From an uncultured Paracoccaceae bacterium (lineage in GTDB: Bacteria; Pseudomonadota; Alphaproteobacteria; Rhodobacterales; Rhodobacteraceae): a stretch of 40,818 bases of DNA. Of this stretch, positions 31,218 through 40,818 are shown in pieces. The notes beneath the pieces are model-generated. The model ran no database searches. It was not told where the DNA came from and saw only the letters and a program-made list of their open reading frames with translations. Within the stretch, counting starts at the first letter, position 1. Each line of letters starts with the position of its first letter. The DNA lies in the NCBI GenBank assembly GCA_937863185.1, contig CALMEG010000117.1, positions 1 through 40,818 on the forward strand, read 5' to 3'. A program made the translations under genes and the position numbers.

Positions 31218-32652
31218 TCCGCCCCCCCAAGAGGTGCCCGTGGCGCTGCGTACCGAAGGCCCGCACGGCCCCGTCATCCATGCCACGAACAGGGCCGCCC
31301 GGCTGGCGGGCGTGCGCGAAGGCGCGCGCGTGACGGACATGCAGGCGCTTTGCCCCGGATTGCGGGTCGAACACGCCGACCCAGAGGGCGATTCCCGGCT
31401 GCTTGCGCGGCTGAACCTGTGGATGCGGCGCTGGTGCCCCTGGAGCGCGGTCGACGGCACGAACGGGCTGGTTCTGGACACGACCGGCGCCGACCATCTG
31501 TGGGGGGGCGAGGCCGCGATGCTGGTGGATATGGAAACCCGCCTGTCCCGCCTTGGATTTTCGGCGCAGCTTGCCCTCGCGCCCACTTGGGGCGCAGCAT
31601 GGGCGCTCGCGCGGTTTGGTCCGGTGCGCGCCATCTGCCATGACACGGCCGACCTGGCCCCCCTGCCCGTCGCCGCGCTGCGCCTGCACGGGGACACCGC
31701 GTTGCTGCTGCACCGGTTGGGCCTGAAATGCGTGGGCGACCTGGCCGCGATGCCGCGCCTGTCGCTGGCGCGACGGTTCTCGCGCGCGAAGCTGGACGCA
31801 AATCCGCTGCTGCGTCTCGATCAGGCGACGGGACGCATGGGCGAACCGCTGGCCCCGCCCGATGCGCCCCCCTCGTTTCGCGCCATTGCCCGGCTGGCCG
31901 AGCCGATCATGGACCCCGCGCACCACCTGCCCGCCCTGTGCCACGACCTCTGCGCCCGGCTTGAAGCCGCCGGACAGGGCGCAAGGCGCCTGTCACTTTG
32001 CGTCTACCGCACAGACGGAGAACGGCGCCGGATCGAGGTCTCGACCGCCGCACCAAGCCGTGACCCCGCACATTTGCACAGCCTTTTCCGCGACCGGCTG
32101 GAACGGATCGACCCCGGCTTTGGCTTCGACCTGATCACGCTCGAGGCGCCGGGGGCAGAGCTACTGGACCGGACGCAGCCCATGCTGGGTGGACGGAAGG
32201 ATGCCGCGCTGGAACTGCCGCGCCTGATCGACCGGCTGACCGCCCGTTTCGGCGCACGCGCACTTTCGCGCCCTGCAGCCCGGCAAAGCCACATCCCCGA
32301 ACGGGCAGAGGTCACGGCCCCGCTGCTGGCCCCCCCCCAGGATAGCCCGCCCCTACCGAACCGCCCCGCACGGCTGCTGGATCATCCCGAGGAAATCCGC
32401 GTGCTATACGCGGTTCCCGAAGGGCCGCCGGCGCAATTCGTCTGGCGCAGACAGACCCACCGGGTGGCGCGCTATCAGGGCCCCGAACGGATCGCACCGG
32501 AATGGTGGCAGGACCGCCCCGGCACCCGCCTGCGCGATTACTTCATGGTCGAGGATCATGACGGTCGGCGGCTGTGGCTTTACCGAGAGGGGTTGCCTGC
32601 CGACGGGCGCGGCGGCCCTCCGCGCTGGTTCCTGCACGGGATGTTCTTCTGA
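31135..32652 (+). CDS. imuB: ImuB, catalytically inactive Y-family polymerase
   Basis: This is the mutasome hub, which binds the beta clamp, ImuA and DnaE2. It has 505 residues. The Y-family fold is recognisable (HATNRAARLAGVREGARVTDMQALCPGL, WCPWSAVDGTNGLVLDTTGADHLWGGEAAML, LKCVGDLAAMPRLSLARRFS). The N-terminal motif reads SIFLPHLPMELW instead of the metal-binding DxDxFF, and the second acidic motif is replaced, as known for ImuB. It therefore should not polymerise DNA. The TGA shares a base with the dnaE2 ATG. Confidence 0.93.
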   Translation: MTRRRIVSIFLPHLPMELWQKQATQAGDPPPQEVPVALRTEGPHGPVIHATNRAARLAGVREGARVTDMQALCPGLRVEHADPEGDSRLLARLNLWMRRWCPWSAVDGTNGLVLDTTGADHLWGGEAAMLVDMETRLSRLGFSAQLALAPTWGAAWALARFGPVRAICHDTADLAPLPVAALRLHGDTALLLHRLGLKCVGDLAAMPRLSLARRFSRAKLDANPLLRLDQATGRMGEPLAPPDAPPSFRAIARLAEPIMDPAHHLPALCHDLCARLEAAGQGARRLSLCVYRTDGERRRIEVSTAAPSRDPAHLHSLFRDRLERIDPGFGFDLITLEAPGAELLDRTQPMLGGRKDAALELPRLIDRLTARFGARALSRPAARQSHIPERAEVTAPLLAPPQDSPPLPNRPARLLDHPEEIRVLYAVPEGPPAQFVWRRQTHRVARYQGPERIAPEWWQDRPGTRLRDYFMVEDHDGRRLWLYREGLPADGRGGPPRWFLHGMFF

Positions 32653-35600
32653 TGCCCGAGATGGACAACCACCGCCCCCGCCGCAGCCTGACCGAAACGC
32701 TGCCCCCCAATCCGCGCGCGCCTTTCGTAGAGCTGGGCGTCAGCAGTTGCTTTTCCTTTCTGCGGGGGGCCTCGGATGCCGTGGATCTGGCATCCGAGGC
32801 CCACGCCCACGGGTATGACACGCTCGGCATTGCCGACCTGAACACGATGGCGGGCGTCGTGCGGCTGCATTGCGAAGCCCTGAAGGCCGGGTTGCGCCCG
32901 GTGATCGGCTGCCGCCTGCAATTGCAAAGCGGCGAGGAGTTCCTGGCCTATCCGCGCGACCGGGCGGCCTATGGCCGGCTTTGCGCGCTGCTGACCAAGG
33001 GTAAGATGCATGACGCGCAGGGCACATGGCAAGCCAAGGGGCGCTGCGACATCTCGCTGGAGGATCTGGCCGCCCATGCCGAGGGGGTGGAGCTGATCGT
33101 GCTACCCGGCGATGATCTGCCCCACCGCCTGCCCGGCCTGCTGCGCCGCCTGCCCACGCTGCGCCATATCGCGGCAAGTTATCTCTATCGGGGGGACGAC
33201 CGGGCGCGGATCAACCGGCTGGACCGGCTGGCGCGCACCCACGGGATCGGCATCCTCGCCACGAACGACGTGCATTACCATGCCCCCGAACGTCGCCCCT
33301 TGCAGGATGTGATGACCTGCATCCGCCAAAAGACAACCATCGCCAAGGCCGGGTTCCTGCTGCATGCCAATGCCGAACGGCACCTGAAATCGCCCGAAGA
33401 GATGTGCCGCCTGTTCGCGGACTGGCCCCATGCGATCACCGCCACCCGCGCGGTGGCCGACATGTGCCGCTTTGACCTGCGCGAACTGGCCTATCACTAC
33501 CCGAACGAGACCATCCCGCCGGGCGAAACCCCGCAAAGCCAGCTGGAAAAGTTGACATGGGCCGGCGCGGCCACGCGCTATCCCGAAGGCCTGCCCGAAA
33601 AGGTGCGCGCCACGCTTGTCAAAGAGCTTGCGATGATCGCGCAGAAGAAGATCCCGCAATATTTCCTGACCATCCACGAAATCGTCCAGTTCGCACGCGG
33701 CGCGGGCATCCTGTGTCAGGGGCGCGGCTCGGCCGCCAATTCGGCGGTGTGCTATGTGCTGGGGATCACCTCGGTCGACCCCGCGCAACACGAGCTTTTG
33801 TTCGAACGGTTCATCAGCGAAGAACGCGATGAACCGCCCGATATCGACGTGGATTTCGAGCACGAACGGCGCGAAGAGGTGATCCAGCACATCTATCGCA
33901 AATACGGCCGCCATCGCGCGGGCCTGTGTGCCACCGTGATCCATTACCGCCCCCGCTCGGCCATCCGCGAGGTCGGAAAGGCCATGGGCCTGTCCGAGGA
34001 CGTGACCTCGGCCCTGGCCAGGACCGTCTGGGGAAGCCATGGCCGCGAGATGGGGCAGGCCAATGTGAACGAGGCCGGGCTGGACCTGTCCGATCCGGTG
34101 CTGAAACGCGCGATCGTGTTGGCCGAACAGATGATCGGCATGCCGCGGCACCTGTCCCAGCATGTCGGCGGCTTCATTCTGACCGAAGGGCATCTGAGCG
34201 AAAGCGTGCCGATCGGCAACGGCGCCATGCCCGAGCGCAGCTTCATCGAATGGGACAAGGACGACATAGACGAGCTGCGCATCCTCAAGGTCGATGTGCT
34301 GGCGCTTGGTATGCTGACCTGCATCCGAAAATGCCTTGCACTCTTGCGCGTGCATCACGGGATCAAGCACGATCTGGCCTCGATCCCGCAGGGGGATGAG
34401 GCGGTCTACGACATGCTTTGCCGGGGCGATAGCGTGGGGGTCTTTCAGGTGGAAAGCCGCGCACAGATGAACATGCTGCCGCGCCTGAAGCCGCGCGTGT
34501 TCTACGATCTGGTGATCGAGGTCGCCATCGTCCGGCCCGGCCCGATCCAGGGCGACATGGTCCACCCCTATCTGCGCCGCCGCAACGGGCAGGAACCCGA
34601 GGATTATCCCGCCCCTGCGCCCCCGCATGATCCGGACGAGTTGCGCAACATCCTTGGCCGCACCAAGGGCGTTCCGATCTTTCAGGAACAGGCCATGAAG
34701 ATCGCGATCGAGGCCGCCCGCTTCAGTCCCGCCGAAGCCAACGAGTTGCGCAAGGCGATGGCCACCTTCCGCTCGCGCGGCACGATCCACAAGCTGGAGG
34801 AGAAGATGGTCGGGCGCATGGTCGAGCGCGGCTACGACCCCGAATTCGCGGCACGCTGCTTCAACCAGATCAAGGGTTTCGGGGAATACGGGTTTCCCGA
34901 AAGCCACGCCGCCAGCTTTGCGCTTCTGGTCTATGTCTCAAGCTGGCTAAAATGCCATTATCCGGCGGCCTTCGCCGCGGCGCTTCTGAATTCCCAGCCG
35001 ATGGGGTTCTATGCGCCCGCCCAGATCGTGCGCGATGCGCGCGAACATGGGGTCGAGGTGCGCGCGCCCGATGTGAACTTCAGCGAATGGGACAATACGC
35101 TTGAACCGGCAGGCACCGGATGGGCGCTGCGGTTGGGGCTGCGTCAGGTCGACGGGATGCAGGCCGCGCGTGCCCATGCCATCATCGCCGCGCGGGATCG
35201 GCCCTACCGCGACCTTCAGGATATCCGGACACGGGCCGGGGTGGATGCGGGTTCTCTTCACCGGCTTGCCGCGGCAGATGCCTGCCGTTCGCTATCGCTC
35301 GATCGGCGCGCCGCGCTGTGGCAGGCGCATGCGCTCAGGGACACGCCCGACCTGCCGCTGTTCCGCAAAACGCAGGACGAGGGCGACGAACCGCCGGCCC
35401 TCCTGCCCGCCATGCCGGTCTGCGAGCAGGTGGTGGCCGATTACCAGACGCTCCGCCTGTCGCTGAAGGCACATCCGATATCCTTCCTGCGTGCCAGCAT
35501 GACACGGCAGGGCTACCGCCCGGCCCGTGATCTGGTCAGCCTGCGCAACCACGCGCATGTGCGGCTGGCCGGGATTGTGCTGATCCGCCAGCGTCCCGGC

Positions 35601-35930
35601 AGCGCCAAGGGCGTGTGCTTCATCACACTCGAGGACGAAACCGGCATCGCCAATCTGGTGGTCTGGCCCAAGGTGATGGCACGGTTTCGCAAGACGATCA
35701 TGACCGCACGGCTGATGGATGTGCGGGGCTATGTCCAGCGTGACGGCGATGTGATCCATGTGGTGGTGCGCGCGCTTTGCGATCGCAGCGATGCGCTGTG
35801 GCGGCTGGCCGATGATCCGTTGCCCGTCCAGACCGCCCGCGCCGACCACCTTGCCCGTTCGGCACAGCCCCCCGCGCATCGCCATCCCCGCAATGTTCGG
35901 ATCATCCCGAAATCGCGCGACTTCCACTGA
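32652..35930 (+). CDS. dnaE2: Error-prone DNA polymerase DnaE2
   Basis: This C-family polymerase is used for translesion synthesis in the SOS response. ATG 32652 (MPEMDNHRPRRSL) overlaps the imuB stop (TGATG) and gives 1092 residues, the normal length; the extra 26 codons upstream lie inside imuB. An N-terminal PHP domain (FVELGVSSCFSFLRGASDAVDLASEA) is followed by the polymerase core with PDIDVDF at 396-402 (catalytic Asp399 and Asp401). A helix-hairpin-helix region and a C-terminal OB fold (VRLAGIVLIRQRPGSAKGVCFITLEDETGIANLVVWP) complete it. Confidence 0.96.
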   Translation: MPEMDNHRPRRSLTETLPPNPRAPFVELGVSSCFSFLRGASDAVDLASEAHAHGYDTLGIADLNTMAGVVRLHCEALKAGLRPVIGCRLQLQSGEEFLAYPRDRAAYGRLCALLTKGKMHDAQGTWQAKGRCDISLEDLAAHAEGVELIVLPGDDLPHRLPGLLRRLPTLRHIAASYLYRGDDRARINRLDRLARTHGIGILATNDVHYHAPERRPLQDVMTCIRQKTTIAKAGFLLHANAERHLKSPEEMCRLFADWPHAITATRAVADMCRFDLRELAYHYPNETIPPGETPQSQLEKLTWAGAATRYPEGLPEKVRATLVKELAMIAQKKIPQYFLTIHEIVQFARGAGILCQGRGSAANSAVCYVLGITSVDPAQHELLFERFISEERDEPPDIDVDFEHERREEVIQHIYRKYGRHRAGLCATVIHYRPRSAIREVGKAMGLSEDVTSALARTVWGSHGREMGQANVNEAGLDLSDPVLKRAIVLAEQMIGMPRHLSQHVGGFILTEGHLSESVPIGNGAMPERSFIEWDKDDIDELRILKVDVLALGMLTCIRKCLALLRVHHGIKHDLASIPQGDEAVYDMLCRGDSVGVFQVESRAQMNMLPRLKPRVFYDLVIEVAIVRPGPIQGDMVHPYLRRRNGQEPEDYPAPAPPHDPDELRNILGRTKGVPIFQEQAMKIAIEAARFSPAEANELRKAMATFRSRGTIHKLEEKMVGRMVERGYDPEFAARCFNQIKGFGEYGFPESHAASFALLVYVSSWLKCHYPAAFAAALLNSQPMGFYAPAQIVRDAREHGVEVRAPDVNFSEWDNTLEPAGTGWALRLGLRQVDGMQAARAHAIIAARDRPYRDLQDIRTRAGVDAGSLHRLAAADACRSLSLDRRAALWQAHALRDTPDLPLFRKTQDEGDEPPALLPAMPVCEQVVADYQTLRLSLKAHPISFLRASMTRQGYRPARDLVSLRNHAHVRLAGIVLIRQRPGSAKGVCFITLEDETGIANLVVWPKVMARFRKTIMTARLMDVRGYVQRDGDVIHVVVRALCDRSDALWRLADDPLPVQTARADHLARSAQPPAHRHPRNVRIIPKSRDFH

Positions 35931-36049: not shown

Positions 36050-36144
36050 CTGCCAATTTGGCAGCCGGCGACATGTCGACGGAAAGGATTTTTCCGCTTG
36101 CCGCATCGCGGCGTGCCAATTTGGCAGGTTGAAATCCTGCCAAA
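36050..36144 (+). promoter_or_regulatory. Repeated TGCCAA-N-TTGGCA palindromes upstream of the Met-rich/cytochrome/molybdoenzyme genes
   Basis: Two identical 13-mers, TGCCAATTTGGCA, lie at 36051-36063 and 36114-36126; the first extends to a 15-bp palindrome. Their centres are 63 bp apart, six turns of B-DNA. A fifth half-site TGCCAA (36138-36143) forms a 9-bp inverted repeat with the second palindrome (36120-36128 with 36136-36144). AT-rich sequence typical of a start region follows at 36160-36182. I do not recognise the regulator. The 325-bp gap 35931-36255 holds these sites, and I see no gene in it. Confidence 0.65.
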
Positions 36145-36255
36145 ATACCCAGCAACATACTGTTATTAAATAATTTTTTAACATCGTCGCACATCGGATG
36201 CTATTGTTTGCTTGCTCCGCCTCCACATCGGAGCCGATCAAAGAGGGGGCCGAAC

Positions 36256-36564
36256 GTGATCCGTGAATTCGCTTTGAAAGGGACCGCCGCAGTAATTGCG
36301 ATGGCACTTTGCGTAACGAGCGCCGCGGCGGAAAAGACGAGCTTCATTGCCGGGACGGCCCCCTCGGCCCGCCCCGCAGAGGCGCCGCAGATCACGGTTT
36401 TCACGCCCGCGCCGGAATGGCGCGCGCAGGCGCTGCACGGCGTCGCGCAGCCCTATCCGCCCAGCCTGTCCTGGCTGGACGATCAGGGGGCCTGGTTCAC
36501 CCCGTTCATCCATCCCGGCATGACCGGGCCTTACGACATTCGCGGCTGGCACAGCCCGCAATAG
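36256..36564 (+). CDS. Small exported protein of unknown function
   Basis: The 102 residues start at GTG 36256, which follows AGAGGGGG with good spacing; an in-frame ATG at 36208 lies in sequence without a ribosome site. Residues 1-25 (MIREFALKGTAAVIAMALCVTSAAA) are a signal peptide. The mature part of about 77 residues is rich in Pro, Trp and aromatics (PEWRAQALHG, PPSLSWLDDQGAWFTPFIHPGMTGPYDIRGWH) and has no Cys. I recognise no family. It is the first gene after the palindromic control region and precedes the Met-rich gene, so it probably belongs to the same system. Confidence 0.65.
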   Translation: MIREFALKGTAAVIAMALCVTSAAAEKTSFIAGTAPSARPAEAPQITVFTPAPEWRAQALHGVAQPYPPSLSWLDDQGAWFTPFIHPGMTGPYDIRGWHSPQ

Positions 36565-36595
36565 GCGGGGCCGTGCCTCGCCGCACCCCCCCGCG

Positions 36596-36735
36596 GCAGA
36601 AATCCGGGGAGAGCCGGGGAACAAGCGTGTGACCGAGGCCCGGCCCCCCCGCAGCCACCAAAGGAGCAGAGATCCGGAGAGACCCGGGAAACAGGCGTGG
36701 GCCGGAGCCCCGGCCACGCAACATCAACAAGGAGT
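36596..36735 (+). repeat. Tandem duplication of a 70-bp unit carrying a ribosome-site-like segment
   Basis: Bases 36596-36645 and 36666-36715 agree at 41 of 50 positions and are offset by exactly 70 bp. The last 20 bp of each unit are more diverged but both end in an AAGGAG-like sequence (about 36660 and 36730). The second unit supplies the ribosome site of the Met-rich gene. The first is followed by no start codon. This looks like an old duplication of the leader, possibly a remnant of a lost gene copy. Confidence 0.75.
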
Positions 36736-36743
36736 CGAGAGAC

Positions 36744-37274
36744 ATGATGAAAGCGATCAAGGGAGCCGTTGCCGTCGCCGTGAGCGCCGCTGCTCTGGCC
36801 ACGGCCGGCCATGCCGACAGCATGTCCGGGATGTCGGGCATGGATGGCATGTCGGGCATGGGCGGTATGTCGGGAATGTCCGGCATGGCCGGCATGTCGG
36901 GTATGGGCGGCATGTCGGGGATGTCCGGCAGCGGCACCTGCGTGCAATGGACCTACGCCCCCGCCATGCAAGGCATGAGCGGCATGTCGGGAATGTCCGG
37001 TATGGGTGGCATGTCCGGCATGGGCGGCATGTCGGGGATGTCCGGCATGGGCGGTATGTCCGGCATGGGCGGCATGTCGGGGATGTCCGGCATGGACGGC
37101 ATGTCGGGCATGTCCGGCATGGGCGGCATGTCGGGAATGTCCGGCATGGGTGGCATGTCCGGCATGGGCGGTATGTCGGGGATGTCCGGCATGGGCGGTA
37201 TATCCGGCATGGGCGGCATGTCGGGGATGTCCGGTATGGGCGATGGCTGGGTCTGCACCAGCTGGGCGCAGTAA
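36744..37274 (+). CDS. Exported methionine-rich M-x-G tripeptide repeat protein
   Basis: The 176 residues start at ATG 36744 (or 36747), with AGGAG upstream. Residues 1-24 are a signal peptide ending AGHA. The mature chain is 12 M-x-G triplets, a short spacer with C-x-x-W (CVQWTYAPA), 31 more triplets (one with Ile for Met), and a tail GWVCTSWAQ. That makes 42 Met in about 152 mature residues, with only two Cys, one in each non-repeat segment, and no His. Met-rich exported proteins are known as Cu(I)/Ag(I) binders or as oxidant scavengers repaired by methionine sulfoxide reductases. The lack of His argues somewhat against classical copper proteins. Neighbouring cytochrome and DmsA-like genes suggest a redox role. 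The function is inferred. Confidence 0.85.
   Translation: MMKAIKGAVAVAVSAAALATAGHADSMSGMSGMDGMSGMGGMSGMSGMAGMSGMGGMSGMSGSGTCVQWTYAPAMQGMSGMSGMSGMGGMSGMGGMSGMSGMGGMSGMGGMSGMSGMDGMSGMSGMGGMSGMSGMGGMSGMGGMSGMSGMGGISGMGGMSGMSGMGDGWVCTSWAQ
36822..37244 (+). repeat. 9-bp minisatellite encoding M-x-G
   Basis: The repeat is a run of 9-bp units, mostly ATG-TCC/TCG-GGC or ATG-GGC-GGC, in two blocks (36822-36929 and 36966-37244). A higher-order unit of five triplets (MSG MSG MGG MSG MGG) recurs in the second block, pointing to growth by duplication of 45-bp segments. Synonymous codon choice varies (TCC/TCG, GGC/GGT/GGG/GGA), so it is not a fresh expansion. The other frames are free of stops for long distances only because of this period. 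Confidence 0.9.
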
Positions 37275-37298
37275 GCCCCGGATCGCCCGTCAAAAACA

Positions 37299-37324
37299 GC
37301 CAGAGGCGGCTTGCCGCCTCTGGC
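37299..37324 (+). terminator. Strong hairpin between the Met-rich gene and the cytochrome gene
   Basis: An 11-bp perfect stem (37299-37309 with 37314-37324) closes a CTTG loop, 24 nt after the Met-rich stop and 24 nt before the cytochrome ATG. On the plus strand no U-run follows, so it more likely attenuates or protects the 3' end of the upstream mRNA. On the minus strand the same hairpin is followed by GTTTTTG and would terminate antisense transcription. Confidence 0.6.
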
Positions 37325-37347
37325 ACCCCCCTGTCTGGAATCTCGCC

Positions 37348-38847
37348 ATGAAAAAGCTAGAACACCTTCTCGGACTTCTTGCCGGTATCGGCTTCGCCGG
37401 AACGGTCCTTCTTTCGCTCAACGCGGCCGCGAACCTGATCTACCGGGTCTCGACCGGCGATGGACCAAAGGCGGAACTGGCGCAACCGGCCGGGCAAGAC
37501 GCGCAAGACCAGGGCGCAGAAGAAACAGGGGAACCCGCCCCGGGAACGGTCGCCGCGGCCGAACCCCCGGCACCCTCTGCGGCCGGGATCGACCTTGCCG
37601 CAGGCGAGAAGGTCTTCAAGAAATGCGCGGCATGCCACACTGCCGGAAAGGACGGCGCGAACCGCACCGGCCCCAATCTCTGGGGGATCCTGAACCGCCC
37701 CGTGGCCGCGCATGCGGGCTTTGCCTATTCCGAGGCGATGGCCGCCCAATCCGGCGAAAGCTGGAGCGCCGAGCGTCTGGACATCTACCTGAGCAAACCC
37801 AAGGATATCGTGCCCGGCACCAGCATGGCCTTTGCGGGCCTGCCCAAATCCGCCGACCGGCACAACCTGATCGCCTGGCTCGGCGCGCAATCCGACACGC
37901 CGGTAGCCCCCGACGCCCTGCCCTTCGGCGGGGCAACGCAGGTTGCGGACAACGCCGAAGCCCCCACCGAACCCGAGGAAGACCCGATCGCCCAGATCGC
38001 CTATGCGAACCCGCCCGACCCGACCGCCGAAGAGCTGGCCGCGATTGCCGCGAAGGTCGCCGCGCTGACCGGGGAACTGCCCGGCCTCGACTATGAGCGC
38101 GCGCGCCATCACCCGCTGCATTTCCCGCCCGCGATCGACAGCGCCTCGAACGCGGAATGCCTTGTCTGCCACCAGGAGATCATGACCGCGAAGCCCCGCG
38201 ACGAAAGCCCCGCGGGCGTGAAGGCCGCCGACAGCCTGGCCTGGTATCAGACGCTCGATACCTACATGGGCGATCAGGAAAGCTTTCACTTCCGCCACCT
38301 GCAAAGCGACTTCGCGCAAGAGGTGATGGATCTGAAATGCAACTTCTGCCACCGCGGCAATGACCCGCGCGAGGAAAGCCCCGACATGATGCCCTTGCGC
38401 GCGGCCTTCTCGGCCGGGCCGCAGCCCGAATTTACCAACCGCAAGATGGTGAACCCCGAAACCACCTGCCTGCGCTGCCATGGCGCGATGCCCGATCCGG
38501 TCGGGATCATGGGCCTGCCGGGTCCCTGGCACGAGGCGCGGCGGGCCGGGGGGAACCCCGAAGCCCCCAACATGACGAAGGGCGCCGGGCGTTCCCAGGC
38601 CGACCTGTCCCGAGCCATCCGCCACAACGTCACCTATCTCAGGGCCGCCAATATCGAGGCGCTTGCGAAAGAGGTCTCCTCGGACACCTGCCACGGCTGC
38701 CACGGCGGGCGGCAATGGTATCGCACGGCCTATCCCTATCCGCGCCACGCCTGGCCCGGCATGGACCCCGAGCCGCCCGAATGGGTCGCCGGCCGCCCCA
38801 CCCAATCCGACGAAGCCTATCGCCTGCCTACCGCAGCCGGCCAGTAA
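37348..38847 (+). CDS. Membrane-anchored five-haem cytochrome c (class I domain fused to tetrahaem domain)
   Basis: This is probably a periplasmic electron-transfer protein. ATG 37348 gives 499 residues. Residues of about 7-31 form an N-terminal membrane anchor, and 40-80 an Ala/Pro/Glu-rich linker. Residues 81-180 form a class I cytochrome c domain (CAACH at 93-97, probable axial Met160 in PGTSMAF). A second part (about 250-499) has four CxxCH sites at 271-275, 331-335, 374-378 and 448-452. I do not recognise the tetrahaem part as a named family. It lies 12 nt before the molybdoenzyme gene and is its likely electron partner, passing electrons between the enzyme and the respiratory chain in a direction that cannot be read. 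Confidence 0.85.
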   Translation: MKKLEHLLGLLAGIGFAGTVLLSLNAAANLIYRVSTGDGPKAELAQPAGQDAQDQGAEETGEPAPGTVAAAEPPAPSAAGIDLAAGEKVFKKCAACHTAGKDGANRTGPNLWGILNRPVAAHAGFAYSEAMAAQSGESWSAERLDIYLSKPKDIVPGTSMAFAGLPKSADRHNLIAWLGAQSDTPVAPDALPFGGATQVADNAEAPTEPEEDPIAQIAYANPPDPTAEELAAIAAKVAALTGELPGLDYERARHHPLHFPPAIDSASNAECLVCHQEIMTAKPRDESPAGVKAADSLAWYQTLDTYMGDQESFHFRHLQSDFAQEVMDLKCNFCHRGNDPREESPDMMPLRAAFSAGPQPEFTNRKMVNPETTCLRCHGAMPDPVGIMGLPGPWHEARRAGGNPEAPNMTKGAGRSQADLSRAIRHNVTYLRAANIEALAKEVSSDTCHGCHGGRQWYRTAYPYPRHAWPGMDPEPPEWVAGRPTQSDEAYRLPTAAGQ

Positions 38848-38859
38848 CAGGAGAGCGCC

Positions 38860-40818
38860 ATGAACAGCTTCAACCCCTCGGCCTGGGCGCGGCTCTTTAC
38901 CCCCACGCGGCGCGAGTTCCTGCGCAGCTCGGCCGCCGTGGCGGCCACGACGCTGGTGCTGCCCGCCACCGCGCGCCGGGCCGGGGCCTTCGCCTACGAG
39001 CCCTATCCCCGCGACGACGATCTCGAGACGGTCGTCACCTCTTGCGCGCATAACTGCGGCTCGCGGCACATGCTGGTCGCGCACAAGAAGGGCGACGTGA
39101 TCGTGCGCCTGTCCACCGATAACGGCAGCTATCAGGGCGATGCCTATGGCACCGATACCGAGGAAAAGCCGCAGCTACGGGCCTGCCTGCGCGGACGCAG
39201 CTACCGCTCGCGTCTCTACAGCCCCGAGCGGCTGCTGTATCCGATGAAGCGCGTCGGCCGGCGCGGCGAGGGCAAGTTCAAGCGCATCGGCTGGGATCAG
39301 GCCCTGACCGAGATCGCCGAGCGGATGGTCTATCTGCGCGACAAATACGGCCCCCAGGCCCTGCTCGATCAAAGCTATGCCGGCGCCTCCTATGGCGTCT
39401 TGCACAAGTCCGACCAGATCGAGGGGCTTCTGGGCCGCTTTCTGGGCATGTTCGGCTGCCGCACCTCAAGCTGGTCGGTGCCCTCGTATCAGGCCACGAC
39501 ATTCTCCAGCCGCATGACCTTCGGCACGATCGAGGACGGCAACGAAGACGATGCCTATGCCCATTCCAGACTGATGATCATGTGGGGCTGGAACCCGGCC
39601 TACACCTTCCACGGCGGCAATACTTTCTATTACCTGCGCATGGCCAAGCAGCGCGGCTGCAAATTCGTGCTGGTCGATCCGCAATATACCGACTCGGCCG
39701 CCGCCTACGATGCCTGGTGGATCCCGATCAAACCCAACACCGATGCCGCCATGATGGCGGGCATGGCCCATCACATCTGGGCCAACGGCTGGCACGACCA
39801 GGGCTTCATCGACCGCTTCGTGCAGGGCATGGACCCCGGCACCACGCCCGACTGGGCCTATCAGCGCGGGCACGAAAGCTTCCGAGAATATATCGAGGGG
39901 ACCAATGACGGGGTGCCCAAGACCCCCGACTGGGCCGCCGCGATCTGCGGCGTTCCCGCCGATGACATCCGCAAGCTGGCCGAGATGTATGCCACCACCA
40001 AGCCCGCCGCGCTGAAGGCAAGCTGGGCGCCCGGCCGCAACGCCTATGGCGAGCAATACAACCGCATGGCCGCCGCCCTTCAGGCGATGACCGGCAATAT
40101 CGGCATCCTGGGCGGCTGCGCCGAGGGCGTGGGCAAGGGCTGGCATGCCGAGGCGGTGGCCTATCCCTACGACCAGTTCGCCAATGTCTGGTTCGCCTCG
40201 ATCAAGTCGGACCGTTGGGCGCATGCGGTGCTCAACTATCCCGATGTGAGGCGCGAGGAGATCGGCCTCTGGCCCCGCTCGGACCAGTGGGACGGGGTGG
40301 TGCCGAATATCCGCGGCATCTTCTGGCAGGGCTCGGACTGGTTCAACCAGCTCACCAACATCAACAAGGAGATCGAGGCGATCCGCAAGCTCGATGCCGA
40401 GGGCGAGAGCGAAAGCCTGTTCGTCTGTTCCGACAGCACCATCACGCCCACCGGCATCTGGGCCGATTACCTGCTGCCCGTCGCCACCCATTTCGAGCGC
40501 CACGACGTGGCCCTGCCCTGGTACAAGGGGCATTACTACATCCACCGCCCGAAGGTGATCGAGCCCCTGGGCGAAAGCAAGACCGACTTCCAGATCTATA
40601 CCGCGCTTGCCTGGCGGCTGGGGTTCGGGCCGGGATACAATCCCAAGGCCGATGCCTCGTATTTCGACAATCCCGACGCGGTGGACGAGGCCTATCTGGT
40701 CGACTGGTGGCACCGTGTGCAGGACCACCAGCATGTCGAGATAAGCTGGGAAGAGTTCAAGCGCCGCGGCGTCTACAAGTTCGTCCTGCCGCAGCCCCAT
40801 GTCGCCTTCCGCGAGCAA
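38860..40818 (+). CDS. Tat-exported DmsA-like molybdopterin oxidoreductase, 3' end cut by window
   Basis: This is a DMSO-reductase-family catalytic subunit with bis-MGD and one FeS cluster, exported folded. The first 653 residues are present. A Tat signal (TRREFLRSSAAV, Arg17-Arg18) runs to about residue 43 (AGA/F). The FeS motif is C62-x3-C66-x3-H70-x38-C109 followed by LRGRSYRSRLYSPERLLYPMKRVGRRGEGKF, very like E. coli DmsA except for His70 where DmsA has Cys. Ser209 (VPSYQ) aligns with the Mo-ligand serine of DmsA. ATG 38860 follows AGGAGA. FeS and membrane subunits are expected downstream, outside the window. The substrate (sulfoxide, N-oxide, or an oxidation such as sulfide/sulfur) is unknown. 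Confidence 0.9.
   Translation, partial: MNSFNPSAWARLFTPTRREFLRSSAAVAATTLVLPATARRAGAFAYEPYPRDDDLETVVTSCAHNCGSRHMLVAHKKGDVIVRLSTDNGSYQGDAYGTDTEEKPQLRACLRGRSYRSRLYSPERLLYPMKRVGRRGEGKFKRIGWDQALTEIAERMVYLRDKYGPQALLDQSYAGASYGVLHKSDQIEGLLGRFLGMFGCRTSSWSVPSYQATTFSSRMTFGTIEDGNEDDAYAHSRLMIMWGWNPAYTFHGGNTFYYLRMAKQRGCKFVLVDPQYTDSAAAYDAWWIPIKPNTDAAMMAGMAHHIWANGWHDQGFIDRFVQGMDPGTTPDWAYQRGHESFREYIEGTNDGVPKTPDWAAAICGVPADDIRKLAEMYATTKPAALKASWAPGRNAYGEQYNRMAAALQAMTGNIGILGGCAEGVGKGWHAEAVAYPYDQFANVWFASIKSDRWAHAVLNYPDVRREEIGLWPRSDQWDGVVPNIRGIFWQGSDWFNQLTNINKEIEAIRKLDAEGESESLFVCSDSTITPTGIWADYLLPVATHFERHDVALPWYKGHYYIHRPKVIEPLGESKTDFQIYTALAWRLGFGPGYNPKADASYFDNPDAVDEAYLVDWWHRVQDHQHVEISWEEFKRRGVYKFVLPQPHVAFREQ

Follow-up and report, generated by a model that had tools for sequence, protein, structure and literature searches.

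The distal part of a 40,818-nucleotide stretch of DNA from an uncultured Paracoccaceae bacterium (contig CALMEG010000117.1 of assembly GCA_937863185.1; the whole stretch is referred to as the window) carries the beginning of an apparently undescribed gene cassette. The cassette links the genes for a small exported protein, an exported methionine-rich repeat protein, a membrane-anchored multihaem cytochrome c and a DmsA-like molybdoenzyme. By analogy with characterised systems it may constitute a periplasmic methionine redox system, in which an oxidant-buffering pool of methionine and methionine sulfoxide would be maintained by a dedicated DmsA-like reductase fed through the cytochrome. We regard the chances that this interpretation holds as about even, since there is an energetic objection to it and genes of the MsrP family occur elsewhere in the genomes concerned (see below). 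The genes themselves, their linkage, their dedicated regulation and the conserved active-site motifs can be read directly from the loci.

In the window the four genes occupy positions 36256-40818 and are all encoded on the forward strand, in the order proposed in the initial annotation. The gene of the small exported protein (36256-36564; 102 codons, GTG start) is followed by the M-x-G repeat protein (36744-37274), which consists of a signal peptide, (MSG/MGG)n arrays and two Cys/Trp islands. The membrane-anchored cytochrome (37348-38847) combines a cyt c-y/c552-like N-terminal domain with a multihaem domain and contains five CxxCH motifs. The gene of the DmsA-like molybdoenzyme (38860-40818), which has a twin-arginine translocation (Tat) signal and an Fe4S4 motif, is incomplete and runs into the contig end at residue 653. 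The control region in front of the small gene contains a paired palindromic operator, TGCCAATTTGGCA, in two identical copies (36051-36063 and 36114-36126; no strand assigned).

The assembly comprises 3.08 Mb in 315 contigs, among which the window corresponds to contig C117. The rest of the operon most probably lies on contig C8. This contig begins within a dmsA gene, 175 codons before its end and about 27 residues beyond the end of C117, and then encodes DmsB, TorD, a ferredoxin, a sensor kinase and an NtrC-type (sigma-54) regulator. This continuation was assigned by elimination, as the locus has a single further copy, and that one, on contig C37, is complete. The genome accordingly has two cassette copies, one split between C117 and C8 (locus L217) and one on C37 (locus L032). 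Their cytochromes are 57% identical, so the two copies do not stem from a recent duplication.

The pentahaem domain of the cytochrome was used to scan 84,980 species genomes, which yielded 80 loci distributed over Alpha-, Beta- and Gammaproteobacteria and one planctomycete metagenome-assembled genome (MAG). The hosts include Paracoccus, Defluviimonas, Rhodovulum, Azospirillum, Hyphomicrobium, Thiobacillus, Thiothrix, Thioploca and Thiomargarita. The Met-repeat gene was detected directly upstream of the cytochrome gene in 72 of the 76 loci having enough upstream DNA. This count includes two loci whose contig edge cuts off all but the end of an array (L134 and L116, whose contig begins with the end of a MYGMGMGGM array) and the betaproteobacterial Met-rich variants L123-L125 and L133. 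Of the four remaining loci, L110 (genome G1118) and L145 (genome G1120) have the small gene, the array and the genes of the histidine kinase and the response regulator together on a different contig of their genome. Nearly all loci continue with genes for a DmsA-like protein (about 70-97% identical to the reference), a DmsB-like and a TorD-like protein, and the kinase and the NtrC-type regulator were found in about 55 of the 80 locus fragments. Among 195 related genomes, five were found to encode a full-length or near full-length relative of the cytochrome; in all five the M-x-G gene is located in front of it or the contig ends inside the repeat.

The co-occurrence of enzyme and repeat protein was furthermore examined in a set of 395 Rhodobacteraceae genomes with one representative per genus. 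Eight of them contain the enzyme clade, and an MSGM-type array was detected in the same eight and in G380, in which the array is cut by the contig end; one more single array match (G433) proved to be a stray. The overlap corresponds to a hypergeometric P of about 7e-16, a value that ignores phylogeny. No long M-x-G arrays were found outside the cassette in these 395 genomes and in 398 sampled Pseudomonadota. Short M-x-G runs in the latter sample belong to multicopper oxidases (G1090, G943) and unrelated proteins, and short-run matches to a GroEL tail, CopA, an EF-hand-like protein and a c-type cytochrome were set aside as unrelated. The suggestion of the initial annotation that these genes form an undescribed linked system is thus strongly supported by the near-constant linkage and the lack of long arrays elsewhere; the opposite arrangement it had considered, with the Met-rich gene placed elsewhere among copper genes, was not seen in either sample.

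The repeat protein of the window comprises 176 amino acids with 44 Met residues, and our recount agrees with the previously given figure of 42 within the 152 mature residues that follow residue 24. In 5000 nucleotide shuffles of its gene the number of Met codons never exceeded 10. Past the signal peptide, 98.5% of the Met residues sit in M-x-G phase, in which x is Ser, Gly, Asn, Asp, Gln or another residue and all four Gly codons are in use. As the Met residues keep this phase while the third positions of the Gly codons vary, selection acts on the protein sequence. Chance or a repeat artefact is ruled out by the occurrence in 72 of 76 loci together with the conservation at the amino acid level despite synonymous variation. 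The Met content is kept at about 25% across large divergence with x free to vary, and His is almost missing from the arrays (0.5%).

The M-x-G arrays are predicted to be disordered. In the AlphaFold model, which is based on a shallow alignment, their predicted local distance difference test score (pLDDT) is near 40, and the two Cys/Trp islands of the window protein (TCVQWTY and WVCTSW) are paired as strands. Islands that interrupt the arrays include W-x-C-T-Q-W, YFRISPTGEIFFYP in Thiobacillus and WVWVP in some Thiothrix. The versions in Azonexus/Zoogloeaceae (L123, L124, L125 and L133) read MSGMSGQEGMAGQKG, with Gln replacing part of the Met residues and the three-residue period kept. In Hyphomicrobiaceae, a second M-x-G gene, whose product has a lipoprotein signal, lies between the cytochrome gene and dmsA (L096, 10782-11237; L100; L104, 10808-11215). 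A different Met-rich protein, in which (MKG)n and CCxGG repeats are fused to a cytochrome c domain, was detected outside the cassette at L191 (G948, contig C26).

The DmsA-like enzyme is about 36% identical to DmsA of E. coli, and the closest solved structures are the dimethyl sulfoxide (DMSO) reductases of Rhodobacter. The TAT and Fe4S4 profiles match it slightly under the Pfam cut-offs. For the full-length relative in L034 the closest curated family is DmsA/YnfE (TIGR02166), with a score of 625.2 bits that lies below the cut-off of 777.7; the B subunit likewise scores 188.8 bits against DmsB (TIGR02951), below the cut-off of 214.1. The gene order after the cytochrome is dmsA-dmsB-torD-ferredoxin-histidine kinase-response regulator. 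A gene for a DmsC-type membrane subunit was not present in the operon of the inspected loci, and its place is occupied by the cytochrome. Taking the two scores and the lack of DmsC together, the enzyme represents, as judged from these profiles, a separate and tightly conserved clade beside DmsA/YnfE and outside DmsABC as defined by those models. It groups in the S/N-oxide reductase branch, apart from the perchlorate, chlorate or iodate reductases. Conserved in 75 of 76 enzymes are the Fe4S4 cysteines (SCAHNCG...C), a Tyr aligned to that of the SYGW motif in DorA and a Ser aligned to the molybdenum-ligand Ser, which is the putative molybdenum ligand by this alignment. No gene of the MsrP type (PF00174) was found within the cassette.

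The pentahaem domain of the cytochrome was found in all lineages. Many Rhodobacteraceae cytochromes add the membrane-anchored cyt c-y/c552-like domain, which results in six haems (one plus five); six is the number in most full-length Rhodobacteraceae copies, including the one on C37, and five, provided by the pentahaem domain only, in most others. The designation as a five-haem cytochrome in the initial annotation is therefore correct for the window copy but was dismissed as a defining number of the cassette, and the window protein, compared with its six-haem relatives, has undergone a local loss of one CxxCH motif. A profile of the multihaem domain found no convincing relative in the PDB, and no convincing extra cytochromes that might act as electron donor were identified in the flanks of 38 loci.

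The small exported protein has a conserved domain of about 75 residues that matches no known family, and its predicted structure is weak (pLDDT 68, predicted template modelling score 0.46). At L108 this domain is fused to a membrane-anchored cyt c-y-like domain, the fusion being encoded by a minus-strand gene located about 5.3 kb downstream of the cytochrome gene. Based on this fusion the small protein probably works with the cytochrome, presumably as an accessory protein. The fusion also hints at a docking of the small protein to the cytochrome chain.

At 35 of 45 loci a palindrome of the form TGNCA-N3-TGNCA lies upstream of the small gene, compared with 0.2 loci in shuffles. The palindromes are usually paired, 63 bp apart in Alphaproteobacteria and 22 bp apart in Gammaproteobacteria, and many loci additionally have a -24/-12-like element upstream of the small gene. 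In the genome of the window the pair at 36051-36126 is the single occurrence. The regulator of the cassette is of the sigma-54-activator (NtrC) type, and the paired palindromes are probably its binding sites. The extracytoplasmic sensor part of 56 of the 57 cassette kinases contains a CxxCH motif, for which reason these kinases probably bind haem c; weak Pfam matches in this part are to haem-sensor domains. With its own haem-c kinase, sigma-54 regulator and upstream palindromes the cassette therefore looks self-regulated. At the Azospirillum loci L111 and L130 the succession of small gene, array, cytochrome and dmsA is kept, and the usual kinase/regulator pair and the palindromes were not found in the stretch examined; control of these two loci may differ from that of the others. 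The cassette also travels, and in Rhodobacter xanthinilyticus it is located on a conjugative plasmid, pEJ01, amid insertion sequences; a further copy belongs to Defluviimonas denitrificans DSM 18921.

In the proposed mechanism the dozens of flexible, solvent-accessible Met residues of the exported M-x-G protein would react with oxidants to form methionine sulfoxide. The Tat-exported DmsA-like enzyme and its DmsB-like ferredoxin subunit would reduce the sulfoxides back to Met using electrons from the membrane-anchored multihaem cytochrome, which would stand in for the DmsC quinol subunit, with the small exported protein as its probable accessory. The haem-c sensor kinase and the sigma-54 regulator would turn on the entire cassette. 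Methionine sulfoxide as the substrate, reduction as the direction and a role in oxidant defence are what we infer, and the M-x-G protein is taken as the oxidisable pool and the enzyme as its reductase because of the analogy to published precedents. DorA of R. sphaeroides reduces protein-bound methionine sulfoxide in oxidised beta-casein, TakP and PCuAC (PMC7402097). In MrpX-YedYZ of Azospira and BcrXQP of Brucella, both established hypochlorite defences, Met-rich repeat proteins encoded next to MsrP form a hypochlorite sink (PMC4623255, PMC8315932). A Met/methionine sulfoxide pool reduced through the cytochrome fits both the enzyme family and these precedents. The use of such a pool as an energy-yielding internal electron acceptor is speculation. 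That the protein-bound pool is a rechargeable redox store with a connection to the respiratory chain, which oxidants would charge and the DmsA-like enzyme would discharge by way of the multihaem cytochrome, encoded by a self-regulated cassette mobile between classes and possibly serving as electron acceptor, seems to us conceivable but doubtful.

Several observations weigh against a methionine sulfoxide-reducing function. In the HMMER alignment the SYGW motif of DorA reads SYAG in the cassette enzyme, the Trp not being conserved. Domains of the cyt c-y/c552 type are usually high-potential carriers fed by the bc1 complex, and the potential of the DMSO/dimethyl sulfide couple is near +0.16 V. 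Such a carrier would therefore leave little thermodynamic margin for the reduction, and the enzyme might conceivably run in the opposite direction. MsrP-type genes (PF00174) occur elsewhere in cassette-bearing genomes, so that another periplasmic methionine sulfoxide reductase is probably present. The sigma-54/haem-sensor control is moreover unlike the logic of MrpX and BcrX, which is based on extracytoplasmic function (ECF) sigma factors and hypochlorite. Finally, the other two of the four exceptional loci, both in MAGs, lack the array: at L144 (G1119) no array was detected anywhere in the genome, and the genome of L136 is without a real array, merely having an unrelated gene with a short run.

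The molybdoenzyme might instead be a respiratory or lithotrophic enzyme acting on an external compound, such as a sulfoxide, selenate or another oxyanion, or an organic sulfur donor, with the Met-repeat protein only mopping up reactive by-products or leaked oxidants, as MrpX does next to perchlorate reductase. MrpX sits in the perchlorate reduction island (PMC4623255). Sulfur oxidisers (Thiothrix, Thiobacillus, Thioploca, Thiomargarita) are numerous among the hosts of the cassette, a high-potential acceptor or a donor-oxidising direction would match the cyt c-y-like domain, and YnfE-type selenate reductases are among the closest named families. Nevertheless, such a function appears unlikely, since the core cassette showed no second reductase, peroxidase or Msr gene that could recycle the sink, the repeat gene and the enzyme are equally constant, and the enzyme belongs to the S/N-oxide reductases rather than to the perchlorate, chlorate or iodate reductases. 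Binding of metals, which had been named as the main alternative, or of chalcogens was judged quite unlikely. MxxM-type motifs might bind Cu(I) or Ag(I), or the protein might coat elemental S, Se or Te made by the enzyme, similar to SefA in selenate reducers. The MxxM spacing is a classical Cu(I) motif; it is shared with Met-rich copper proteins (the CopA/PcoA tails, the Mets motifs of Ctr1), and short M-x-G runs are present in the multicopper oxidases of G1090 and G943. In contrast to the Met/His tails of copper oxidases, however, the cassette arrays are virtually free of His. They are also an order of magnitude longer, are always encoded together with the molybdoenzyme locus and were not found beyond the cassette in nearly 800 genomes. 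The inspected loci showed no copper genes within the cassette or in its surroundings, and a copper operon was dismissed on this ground and on the lack of His.

It is highly improbable that the repeat has a purely structural role, with Met being incidental, and joins cytochrome and molybdoenzyme as a tether or scaffold of a flexible or collagen/polyglycine-II-like kind. The strict three-residue period with Gly is in line with this role, as are the position of the Hyphomicrobiaceae lipoprotein copies between cytochrome and dmsA and the replacement of some betaproteobacterial Met residues by Gln with the period kept. A match to the Pfam Collagen family (PF01391) also lies slightly over the cut-off (30 bits versus 27.2). 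Collagen-like proteins are usually rich in proline, which the repeat lacks, and AlphaFold gives disorder and not a helix bundle, again from a shallow alignment. The retention of about 25% Met over large divergence, with x free, likewise speaks against Met being incidental.

The cassette is similar in principle to MrpX-MsrP but is built of unrelated parts. MrpX-YedYZ (MsrPQ) of Azospira suillum and BcrXQP of Brucella melitensis also comprise an exported Met-rich repeat protein beside a periplasmic molybdenum-dependent methionine sulfoxide reductase fed by the respiratory chain, yet their repeat is MXKDX instead of M-x-G and they are under ECF sigma control instead of haem-sensor/sigma-54 control. 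MsrP is a member of the sulfite oxidase family, whereas the cassette combines a DmsA-like Fe4S4 enzyme of the bis(molybdopterin guanine dinucleotide) type with a DmsB-like subunit and the multihaem cytochrome. A Tat-exported A subunit with Fe4S4 motif, a DmsB-like four-cluster ferredoxin and a chaperone of the TorD/DmsD type are shared with E. coli DmsABC and YnfEFGH; instead of their DmsC-type membrane subunit the cassette has the multihaem cytochrome and the Met-repeat protein. The Rhodobacter DorA/DorC and the TorA/TorC systems likewise pair an S/N-oxide reductase with a pentahaem-type membrane cytochrome. Unlike the cassette enzyme with its Fe4S4 motif, DmsB partner and SYAG, the DorA type contains no Fe4S4 cluster and has SYGW, and the cassette cytochrome is of a CxxCH-array type that is not clearly NapC/TorC.

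Full-text searches of open-access papers gave no description of the cassette, and its genes in R. xanthinilyticus are generically annotated as hypothetical protein, cytochrome c family protein and molybdopterin-dependent oxidoreductase. The repeat protein is a candidate physiological partner for this generically annotated clade of the DMSO reductase family. The tight linkage across three proteobacterial classes and the presence of an own regulator provide a handle on the question whether protein methionine serves as a rechargeable redox buffer. If it encodes the redox store outlined above, the cassette would represent a methionine-cycling system that evolved independently for a second time. 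The solution represented by MrpX/MsrP may have arisen twice from unrelated parts. The cassette is simple to test, as the enzyme and its putative substrate are encoded side by side.

Immediately upstream of the control region the window contains a gene resembling dnaE2, which encodes an error-prone polymerase (32574-35930). It was identified by eye and looks unrelated to the cassette.

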